Shown in pieces: positions 57,713 through 61,073 of a stretch of DNA of 64,000 bases. The stretch covers positions 1 through 64,000 of the forward strand of contig NZ_JAEQ01000011.1 of NCBI RefSeq assembly GCF_000518985.1, read 5' to 3'. Position 1 is the stretch's first letter, and every line of letters starts with the position of its first letter. Source of the DNA: Chelativorans sp. J32. Lineage in GTDB: Bacteria > Pseudomonadota > Alphaproteobacteria > Rhizobiales > Rhizobiaceae. The translations under genes and the position numbers were made by a program. The notes beneath the pieces were generated by a model. It worked only from the letters and a program-made list of their open reading frames with translations. It was not told the origin of the DNA and searched no databases.

Positions 57713-59032
57713 TCACGCCCCGTAGATCAGCCTGTCCTGTCTCGCTCGCAGTTCGGCGATCTTCGAGTTCTCGGGAGGAGCGGCATTGTCATAGGTAAGA
57801 AGATCGCCCTTGCGGATGGGCTTCAATACCTTGCCGCCTTGCAGCAGTCCGCACGGTATGGCTGCTGCCGCGCGAGCTTCGTCGGCTCTCATGATCCAGG
57901 CGCGGTAGCAATATTCCCCTATCGCATCAAGCCGATCGCCGGGCCTGAGATCCCGCTTCGCAACCGCACACACTTCGGCCACGGGCTTGGGAAGCGGGAC
58001 CATGTCCGCCTTGCGATAGAGAACCACGCGGGCACACGTGAGAGGCACTTCGAGCGAGGTGAGGTGGTATGGCCGGTGGAAAGTGAAATAAGGCCCCTCT
58101 CCCATCTTCAAATCCTCCATCCGCTCGCGGATCCGCGGATGCGACATCTCGGCGATGACGAATACGCCGGGTGCTACGCCCTTTCCGATCGAATAATCCA
58201 CCACGCCGGTGCGGGAGAGAACACCGCCGTCTTCTCTGGGGATCAGCGTCTTGTTGAGCTCAGCCAATGTGGCAGCTGGGCCGTGCATGCCCGGCTTGTC
58301 AGGCACAAGGCCGGTGGCATTTGCGATTGCCGCCATCTCGACCATCGTTTTCGAACCGTCGACGAACTCCACGAGCATGCGGACATTCATGTTCCGCCGC
58401 TCGGCCTCTTCCGCATAGTCGTCCGGGATCGCGTCCGTGTTGAGGGGGTTGTTCTTGCCCTTGCCCGCGGCGACGATGGTGTGGCCCATGGCGGAGACAA
58501 ACTCGATCAGCTCCATGCAGGCGGAGGGCTCATCGCCCGCGCCGAGCGAGTAGGTCACGCCCAACCGGTCGGCTTCGCTTTTGAGATAGGCGCCGATGGT
58601 CACATCCGCCTCGACATTCATCATGACGAGATGTTTGCCGTGCTCCATGGCGCGCAGGCCGATTTCCGCGCCGACCGCAGGAACCCCGGTTGCATCGACA
58701 ACGACATCGATAAGATCGCTTTCGATGATCTGGCCGGCATCTCCCGTCACCGCGATCCGACCGGCCTCGATCGTGCTGGCCATGGCGGCGGCGCTGTCGA
58801 CTATCTTCGCGTGACCCGGCTCCTGATAGGCGATCTCCGCCGCTTTCAGCGCTGATTCGGGCCGGAGTTCAGAGATCGCGCCGACTTCGATGCCGCGCAT
58901 ATGGGAAACCCGGGCCACGATGTCGGTCCCCATTTCGCCGGCTCCGATAAGGCCGATACGAATCGGCTTCCCAGTCTTGGCCCGCTCTTCCAGATCGCGC
59001 GCAAGCCCAACCAGCGCTACGTTGCTTGTCAT
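57713..59032 (-). CDS. NAD(P)-dependent dehydrogenase with C-terminal SAF domain
   Basis: The 439-residue protein has an N-terminal Rossmann fold (IGLIGAGEMGTDIVARVS), a homoserine-dehydrogenase-like catalytic region with VVVDATGVPAVGAEIGLRAME, and a C-terminal SAF-type domain near VCAVAKRDLRPGDRLDAIGEYCY. Members of this group are often annotated as FlgA-like or homoserine dehydrogenase-like; known relatives act on sugar acids. Its substrate cannot be read from the sequence. The CCUCCUCCC-loop RNA lies 155 bp upstream on the other strand. Confidence 0.75.
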   Translation of the reverse strand: MTSNVALVGLARDLEERAKTGKPIRIGLIGAGEMGTDIVARVSHMRGIEVGAISELRPESALKAAEIAYQEPGHAKIVDSAAAMASTIEAGRIAVTGDAGQIIESDLIDVVVDATGVPAVGAEIGLRAMEHGKHLVMMNVEADVTIGAYLKSEADRLGVTYSLGAGDEPSACMELIEFVSAMGHTIVAAGKGKNNPLNTDAIPDDYAEEAERRNMNVRMLVEFVDGSKTMVEMAAIANATGLVPDKPGMHGPAATLAELNKTLIPREDGGVLSRTGVVDYSIGKGVAPGVFVIAEMSHPRIRERMEDLKMGEGPYFTFHRPYHLTSLEVPLTCARVVLYRKADMVPLPKPVAEVCAVAKRDLRPGDRLDAIGEYCYRAWIMRADEARAAAAIPCGLLQGGKVLKPIRKGDLLTYDNAAPPENSKIAELRARQDRLIYGA

Positions 59033-59125
59033 GATATGCCTCCGGCTCAGCTCCTACGAGGGTTAAAGGGCTGGGAGGCACGCCGTCAAGGACGGCCATT
59101 TGCTGCGGTGCGACAGAATTGCACG

Positions 59126-59143
59126 GCTGTTATGCAAAACAGC
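59126..59143. repeat. Short inverted repeat upstream of the small RNA
   Basis: GCTGTT and AACAGC are perfect inverted repeats with a six-base ATGCAA spacer. It may be an operator or part of the small RNA promoter. A TTGCAC hexamer overlaps its left side, but no convincing -10 was found. Confidence 0.3.
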
Positions 59144-59187
59144 TCTTTAAATCCCGCGGCGAGCCCCCTATGTAAGCCGCAAGTTCT

Positions 59188-59305
59188 CGACGGGGCTCCT
59201 CCTCCCTAAAATCCCTGTCGGGTCGCGGTCAGCCTATCCTCCTCCCAGGCTGACCGACTCCAAAGGCACCCGCTGGACCTCCTCCCCCAGCGGGTGCTTT
59301 TTTTT
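59188..59305 (+). ncRNA. Small RNA with three CCUCCUCCC-loop hairpins (cuckoo/alpha-r14/CcsR-type)
   Basis: Three hairpins follow each other, each with CCTCCTCCC in the loop. Hairpin 1 pairs CGACGGGG (59188-59195) with CCCTGTCG (59213-59220), with one G-T pair. Hairpin 2 pairs GGTCAGCCT (59227-59235) with AGGCTGACC (59247-59255). Hairpin 3 pairs GCACCCGCTGG (59266-59276) with CCAGCGGGTGC (59287-59297) and is followed by T8, an intrinsic terminator. The three CCTCCTCCC motifs are at 59198, 59238 and 59278, exactly 40 bases apart. Known RNAs with this design pair with Shine-Dalgarno regions; the family name is by resemblance. The 5' end and promoter are not determined, and the 5' end may lie upstream of hairpin 1. 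Confidence 0.8.
59268..59305 (+). terminator. Intrinsic terminator of the small RNA (hairpin 3 plus T8)
   Basis: The third hairpin has an 11-bp GC-rich stem (59266-59276 with 59287-59297), directly followed by eight T (59298-59305). It ends plus-strand transcription 76 bp before the promoter of the GH13 gene. Confidence 0.85.
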
Positions 59306-59381
59306 GAGATTTCCGCACCCCTACAGCATCGGCCTGAAACCGGAATCGGTTTTCGGAAAGCACGATGCGTCGCCCTGGCTC

Positions 59382-59407
59382 GGAACGCTCTCTCGTATAA
59401 ATGCGTT
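59382..59407 (+). promoter_or_regulatory. EcfG-type promoter for the GH13 gene
   Basis: GGAAC-N17-CGTT (GGAAC 59382-59386, CGTT 59404-59407) is a perfect consensus match. It lies 43 bp before the ATG at 59451, after the small RNA terminator. Confidence 0.85.
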
Positions 59408-59450
59408 GGCTCCTCGAAGGCGCTATGGTTCGAGGGGTATTGCGAGGTTG

Positions 59451-61073
59451 ATGAGCGATTATTGGTGGAAGAACGCGGTAGTTTACGCGGTCGATGTAGA
59501 GCGGTTCTGCGATTCGGATGACGACGGCATAGGGGATTTCAAAGGGCTGACGTCCAAACTGGACTATATCGCCGAGCTCGGCGTCACCTGCATCTGGCTA
59601 CTTCCCTTCTATCCCTCCTTCGGCCAGGACAACGGCTACAGCATCACCGATTATCTACGCGTCGACACCCGCTTCGGCGTGTTCGAGGACTTCCTCGATT
59701 TCATTCATCGGGCCGGCGAGCACGGAATTCGCGTCGTTGTCGATCTCGTGGTGCACCATACATCAACCCATCACCCGTGGTTTCAGGCCGCTCGCTATAA
59801 CGAGAAGTCCCGTTACCGGAATTACTACATTTGGGCCCACAATCCTCCACCGACGCCGCCAGACAAGGGCACAATCTTCCCGGGTGAGGAAGAGACGGTC
59901 TGGACCTACGACGAGGTCGTGCGCGCCTATTACCACCACCGGTTCTATCACTTCGAACCCGGGCTCAATCACGCCAATCCCGATGTGCGCGACGAAATCG
60001 GGAGGATCATCGATTATTGGCTGAGCTTCGGCATTGCCGGGTTTCGCGTGGATGCGGCGTCACACATCCTGGAAAACCCGCTCGCCAAGTCCGGGGAGGA
60101 CGAGCACGCACCGGACATGTTGCGGGAGATGTTTGACAGGGCAACCGGAGCCAAGGCCGACATCGTCATGCTGGGCGAGGTGGACGAAAGCCCGGACAAG
60201 CTCGAGAAGTTCTTCGATGGAACACGGTTGAACATGATGTTCAACTTCCTGCTGAACAACTATCTCATTCTGGGGCTGGCGCAAGAAAAGGTGGAACCGA
60301 TCCAGCGTGGGTTGGCCATGCTTCCCGTGCCACCGGAAAATGGTCAATGGGCCAATTTCCTGCGCAATTTCGACGAAGCGGACCTGGAGCGGCTCACGCC
60401 TGAGGAGTTGGAGAGCGTTCTCCAGATTTTTGCGCCAAAGGAAGAGATGCGCATCTACGGGCGCGGCTTGAGGCGGCGTCTCGCGCCGATGCTGGATGGA
60501 GACGTACGCCGTCTGAAGATGGCGATGAGCCTTCTTTATTCCATGCCGGGCGTACCCGTTGTCGTTTATGGCGACGAAATCGGCATGGGAGAAGATCTTT
60601 CCCAAGAGGGGCGCAATTCCGTCCGCTCGCCGATGCAGTGGGACGGAGGCCGCAACGGCGGCTTTTCATCGGCCCGGAAGGAAAAGCTTGTCCAGCCGAT
60701 GGTCGATAAAGGCCGTTTCGGCTTCGAGCGCATCAATGCGGAGGCGCAGCGCAATGATCCGGATTCCCTCCTCTCCTTTGTCAAGCAACTCTCGATCTTG
60801 CGCCGCGAGCGTACCGAGATAGGCAGTGGTTTTTGCGCGTTCCTCGAGAGCGGTTCCGACCATGTGCTCGTGCATCATTACAAGTCCGAGGCCGCCCCGC
60901 TGGTCATGATACACAATCTCAACGGGCAGTCGGTGGATATCGATATCCAGCTGCCGGCCGGCGTGACCTCGCTGGGCGCTCTCTTCGGCGGCAAGACGCC
61001 GCCCGTCGAAAATGGACGGCTGCGTATGCCACTCGAACCTTACGGCGTGCGCTGGTTGGGTCTGCCGCGCTGA
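59451..61073 (+). CDS. GH13-family alpha-amylase/trehalose-synthase-like enzyme
   Basis: The 540-residue enzyme has the GH13 barrel. The nucleophile Asp201 is in AGFRVDAASH and the acid/base Glu243 in VMLGEVDES. The third Asp308 is in LRNFDEADL. Two usually conserved positions differ: the region I motif reads VVHHTS instead of VVNHTS, and the Asp308 motif has Phe instead of His (NFD instead of NHD). The likely activity is transglycosylation or hydrolysis of alpha-glucosides, and the deviations make the reaction uncertain. Start 59451 is after the promoter; upstream in-frame sequence runs through it. An SDR gene follows 21 bp later. Confidence 0.88.
   Translation: MSDYWWKNAVVYAVDVERFCDSDDDGIGDFKGLTSKLDYIAELGVTCIWLLPFYPSFGQDNGYSITDYLRVDTRFGVFEDFLDFIHRAGEHGIRVVVDLVVHHTSTHHPWFQAARYNEKSRYRNYYIWAHNPPPTPPDKGTIFPGEEETVWTYDEVVRAYYHHRFYHFEPGLNHANPDVRDEIGRIIDYWLSFGIAGFRVDAASHILENPLAKSGEDEHAPDMLREMFDRATGAKADIVMLGEVDESPDKLEKFFDGTRLNMMFNFLLNNYLILGLAQEKVEPIQRGLAMLPVPPENGQWANFLRNFDEADLERLTPEELESVLQIFAPKEEMRIYGRGLRRRLAPMLDGDVRRLKMAMSLLYSMPGVPVVVYGDEIGMGEDLSQEGRNSVRSPMQWDGGRNGGFSSARKEKLVQPMVDKGRFGFERINAEAQRNDPDSLLSFVKQLSILRRERTEIGSGFCAFLESGSDHVLVHHYKSEAAPLVMIHNLNGQSVDIDIQLPAGVTSLGALFGGKTPPVENGRLRMPLEPYGVRWLGLPR

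Follow-up and report, generated by a model that had tools for sequence, protein, structure and literature searches.

The window, the whole stretch of 64,000 nucleotides from Chelativorans sp. J32 that was analysed, carries at 59181-59302 on the forward strand what we read, with a probability of about 0.9, as a stand-alone, trans-acting αr14 (NfeR1) RNA with its own promoter, a probable activator dyad and loops that would block Shine-Dalgarno (SD) sequences. The locus looks like a genuine, conserved and ordinary member of the αr14 family, a kind of RNA that has already been described. The evidence from the present analysis consists of family membership, a predicted structure with covariation, conservation of the loops and a conserved promoter-like region. 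Published work is cited from the available parts of PMC10746234, PMC10253847 and PMC3927594. The features of the locus are listed below.

59119..59137, + strand: upstream dyad TTGCACGGCTGTTATGCAA, a possible LysR-type site (conservation)
59145..59173, + strand: putative core promoter CTTTAA-N17-CTATGT (conservation in window-type loci)
59181..59302, + strand: αr14 small RNA gene (Rfam RF02344 ar14), full length (cmscan)
59186..59222, + strand: hairpin 1, 10 pairs, loop CUCCUCCUCCCUAAAAU (fold; 96.2% of cells paired in 13 sequences)
59198..59206, + strand: anti-SD motif a, CCUCCUCCC (motif search, fold)
59226..59256, + strand: hairpin 2, 10 pairs in the window, loop AUCCUCCUCCC (fold)
59238..59246, + strand: anti-SD motif b, CCUCCUCCC (motif search, fold)
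59262..59301, + strand: hairpin 3, likely terminator stem, 15 pairs, loop ACCUCCUCCC (fold)
59278..59286, + strand: anti-SD motif c, CCUCCUCCC (motif search, fold)

Identification and predicted structure

At the Rfam gathering thresholds, ar14 (RF02344) was the sole match across the whole window, at 59181-59302 (+), with a score of 86.0 bits against a gathering cut-off of 58.8, an E-value of 4e-14 and coverage of all model positions (1-123 of 123). Related families scored under their cut-offs at the locus, with 39.1 bits for 6C (cut-off 47), 33.1 bits for ar7 (cut-off 60) and 31.7 bits for CcsR1 (RF02791, cut-off 65.3). A sequence-only reading of the window had filed the RNA with the cuckoo/αr14/CcsR group, and the covariance-model search bears this out.

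Exactly three matches to CCTCCTCCC were found in the window, all on the + strand, and they start at 59198, 59238 and 59278, the positions given in the same reading. The bare count is weak evidence because the whole window, dinucleotide-shuffled, contains 0.90 matches on average, and three or more turned up in 4 of 100 shuffles. The clustering of the motifs, unlike their bare count, is strong evidence: all three copies lie inside 89 bases, and the chance of finding three within 100 bases is about 3e-7 by a rough single-base estimate.

The minimum-energy fold of 59181-59305 (-60.3 kcal/mol; z -7.38; 0 of 200 shuffles equally low) consists of three hairpins with one motif copy in each loop, as had been proposed from the letters of the sequence. 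The 15-pair stem of hairpin 3 enters a run of eight T (59298-59305), the first four of which are paired in the stem, and the earlier view that the third stem doubles as the terminator is upheld as a prediction. A simple terminator consensus scan gave no match; its loop limit is 8 bases, whereas the loop of hairpin 3 has 10.

Conservation of loops, stems and spacing

Matches to ar14 over the cut-off were obtained in all 16 genomes searched from the GTDB genus of Chelativorans multitrophicus, own genome included. For a sample of the family, stricter filters were applied, and 137 of 151 genomes had a match over the cut-off and 146 of 151 a match at E<=1e-4. The 14 control genomes gave no ar14 match; at a laxer limit they gave one, below the cut-off. 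The genus matches over the cut-off numbered 40, and 30 of these loci were examined (L001, L002 and L006-L033), L003-L005 being excluded from the loop count as below the cut-off. CUCCUCC occurs in all three predicted loops at 29 of the 30, and all nine motif bases occur in all three loops at 20 of the 30, so the CUCCUCC core is nearly fixed and the full nine-mer is not. The exception is L031, with CUCCUCC in two loops and the full nine bases in one.

For the stems, 13 window-type sequences from 12 of the 16 genus genomes were picked by similarity and aligned. Overall 97.9% of cells pair (97.1% for hairpin 2 over 8 consensus pairs, 99.5% for hairpin 3), and pairing falls to 36.6-48.9% when the partners are slid. 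Changes on both sides were seen at 8 pairs, a number reached by 3 of 500 shuffles, and in 20 cells, reached by none of 500, and the kinship among the 13 sequences limits what these shuffles prove. One of the five covariation measures, further standard pair types, did not exceed the shuffles (382 of 500 reached the observed value). The stems thus diverge with pairing kept while the loops stay. The sequence-only reading had named loss of the loop motif with retention of the stems as one outcome that would speak against it; the genus loci show CUCCUCC kept and stem pairs changed.

The exact 40-base period of the motifs, to which that reading drew attention, is present in the window and absent from the other 62 loci with three full motifs. 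The spacing survey covered 85 over-cut-off loci (30 from the genus, the 30 best-scoring from the family and 25 from six named genomes), with 5 loci excluded as below the cut-off, and 63 of the 85 carry exactly three full motifs. A spacing of 40/40 occurs in 1 of these 63, the window itself, and the Rfam ar14 consensus has loop spacings of 38 and 40. The period was therefore rejected as a meaningful feature; it simply follows from how long the stems and loops are. In one related genome, three ar14 matches stand in a row about 260 bases apart (G001:C1:402900-403540).

Upstream region and gene neighbourhood

The core promoter was placed by conservation, the sigma-70 consensus scan having detected no promoter. 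The pattern CTT[T/C]AA-N17-[C/T]TAT[G/C]T, written after inspection of the alignment, is kept in 13 of 13 window-type loci and puts the transcript start near 59181, the first position of the Rfam match. CTTTAAA...CCCCTATGT could also be read as RpoH-type, but this is not favoured, since the run of C ahead of the -10 element is not conserved throughout the 13 loci. Further upstream, the dyad has the form TGCA-N9-TGC in 11 of the 13 loci (it is missing from L030 and L032); 9 of the 13 loci have the T-N11-A form. The promoter of NfeR1 is described as RpoD-type, with the LsrB box TGCA-N6-GCAT at around -72 to -60 (PMC10746234). The window locus shares with it an RpoD-like promoter behind a conserved upstream block, but the LsrB box is absent from 59050-59181, and a longer dyad stands at about -62 to -44 instead, beginning about 10 bases nearer than the box position. 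A Sinorhizobium medicae copy (L212) has the exact box at -71. LysR-type control of the window RNA through the dyad is plausible from the sequence.

On the upstream side the neighbour is a divergent DRL-type oxidoreductase gene (57713-59032, opposite strand to the RNA). This adjacency is only partly kept, being found at 5 of 32 other loci (L001 and L003-L033; flanks of 1.5 kb).

Downstream, on the same strand as the RNA, a GH13 gene (59451-61073) starts 148 bases past the RNA end. It is preceded by a GGAAC-N17-CGTT box at 59382 (59382-59407), which we take to be an EcfG-type general stress promoter; the GH13 orthologues in L034 and L035 have a similar box some 60-70 bases ahead of them. The stress-type promoter is that of GH13 and not of the RNA. 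In L034 and L035 the motif array is about 1.9 kb upstream of the GH13 orthologue, so direct adjacency of RNA and GH13 is seen solely in the window; in L034 a second GH13-type frame (1136-2890) occupies the gap. Among GH13 relatives (80 kept of 130 found; flanks up to 3 kb, shorter for some), exact motifs are clustered in the flanks of 2 of 80, and both clusters lie about 1.9 kb upstream of GH13. A conserved link to GH13 was rejected on the gap in both relatives with the array, and the special weight once given to a neighbouring GH13 gene driven by a stress promoter is not supported, the box being GH13's own. Between the RNA and GH13, at 59320-59373, lies a dispersed repeat of about 50 bases; a query with 59100-59460 gave 28 matches in the own genome, the query region itself and an ar14 site among them, and numerous matches in related genomes.

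The own genome has two ar14 matches over the cut-off, the window copy on contig C3 and C9:68182-68304 (95.3 bits), and three weaker ones. A DUF1127 match (C9:68042-68149, Pfam DUF1127) ends 33 bases before the second strong copy (L001, G000:C9:68182-68304) begins. Fourteen hand-picked loci of the L001 type look alike upstream, with Pfam run on one only. This layout resembles the CIN1 arrangement named in the available part of PMC10253847. DUF1127 matches in the own genome are two, on C9 and C1 and neither on C3; no DUF1127 gene was found beside the window copy, so the CIN1-type arrangement does not occur there. The two strong copies differ in setting: a conserved promoter-like region precedes the window copy, which stands alone, and a DUF1127 gene precedes the other. 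One of the matches below the cut-off, L003 (G000:C1:525436-525537, 38.1 bits), has a hairpin with a CUCCUCCUCCUCCC loop followed by a terminator-like hairpin with the loop UUCCUCC, and is perhaps a two-hairpin relative; matches scoring like it were listed in other genomes of the genus.

Relation to known RNAs

The closest studied relative of the window RNA is NfeR1, also named Smr14C2. NfeR1 of Sinorhizobium meliloti is the founding member of αr14, 123 nt long and Hfq-independent, and αr14 RNAs have three hairpins whose stems differ strongly and each of which holds an identical, unpaired CCUCCUCCC (PMC10746234). Three hairpins, each with CCUCCUCCC unpaired in its loop, are predicted at the window locus, which agrees with NfeR1 also in its length of about 123 nt and in being a stand-alone gene. 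Three tandem motif hairpins, put forward earlier as a special feature, are the family norm in the same source. The loop spacing of 40/40 differs from the 38/40 of the αr14 consensus.

Described RNAs with the same loop motif include RFMSmelA075 with three hairpins and RFMSmelA099 with four, and a genome has several copies (PMC3927594). The window RNA shares with them CCUCCUCCC, variable stems and multiple copies per genome; RFMSmelA099 differs by one extra hairpin, and for RFMSmelA075 no difference of plan was seen in the available part of that source. CcsR1 (RF02791; Rhodobacter sphaeroides CcsR1-4, the cuckoo RNAs of the CIN1 locus) has the same loop motif, but its Rfam model has two hairpins where the window RNA has three, and CcsR1-4 are described as co-transcribed with the DUF1127 gene ccaF1 (PMC10253847).

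Proposed function and alternatives

The RNA would be transcribed from the housekeeping-type promoter just upstream, probably with an activator at the dyad, and the transcript would end at hairpin 3, the predicted terminator. The three loops would expose CCUCCUCCC, which we take to resemble the anti-SD end of 16S rRNA; each loop could therefore pair with the SD region of an mRNA and block translation. By analogy with NfeR1, the window RNA most likely represses mRNAs by covering their ribosome-binding sites, and the three motif copies are probably redundant. Silencing through anti-SD loops and the redundancy of its three motifs are described for NfeR1, which silences ntrB and two transporter mRNAs (PMC10746234), and the earlier suggestion that such loops make the RNA a translational regulator agrees with this mechanism. 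The mechanism and the loop redundancy are thus drawn from the NfeR1 literature; for this organism we infer that the RNA is expressed, answers to an activator and has mRNA targets.

For ntrB, which NfeR1 is known to target, a simple duplex calculation gave no support in this genome, its start region being no notable partner of the loop. We took as ntrB the frame that follows dusB (start L224:2484), an assignment made from its position and by visual inspection; GGAGG does not occur in its start region. One simple duplex method was used, 31 bases against 30, and 484 of 5000 random window stretches paired with the loop as well as or better than the ntrB start region. For GH13 the figure was 244 of 5000, which was not counted as evidence. 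The genus stand-alone copy might form a distinct αr14 sub-branch with its own conserved activator dyad and a target set without ntrB, a suggestion from the sequence that we hold to be rather doubtful. If true, it would be the same loop module rewired to another input and output.

It is improbable that the window RNA serves mainly as a platform or sponge for an RNA-binding protein, for instance a DUF1127 protein of the CcaF1 kind, rather than as an antisense RNA. CcaF1, a DUF1127 protein of Rhodobacter sphaeroides, influences many RNAs as well as CcsR maturation (PMC10253847), CcsR1 shares the loop motif and the own genome has its two DUF1127 matches, but no such gene adjoins the window copy, and an NfeR1 mutant in all three loops fails to lower an ntrB reporter (PMC10746234).

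The position on the same strand, 148 bases before GH13, could also suggest a role in cis, as terminator or 5' leader of that gene (59451-61073). We consider this very improbable: a strong terminator is predicted at the end of the RNA, a GGAAC-N17-CGTT box stands before GH13 itself and a like box before the orthologues in L034 and L035, the array lies about 1.9 kb from the orthologue in both (with a GH13-type frame in the gap of L034), and an exact-motif cluster accompanies just 2 of the 80 relatives kept. That chance alone produced three C-rich repeats here, or that they are a simple repeat with no role as RNA, is hardly credible; three nine-mers were reached in 4 of 100 shuffles, but the clustering, the covariance-model score, the fold and the covariation are all contrary. 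The preferred reading is an αr14 RNA acting in trans through its loops.

Implications

The locus adds a clear case to the known αr14 family and alone changes no picture. One genome shows two arrangements: one copy stands alone with a promoter-like region of its own, and another follows a DUF1127 gene. This is useful for the question of what makes alphaproteobacteria maintain several RNAs that share their loops.
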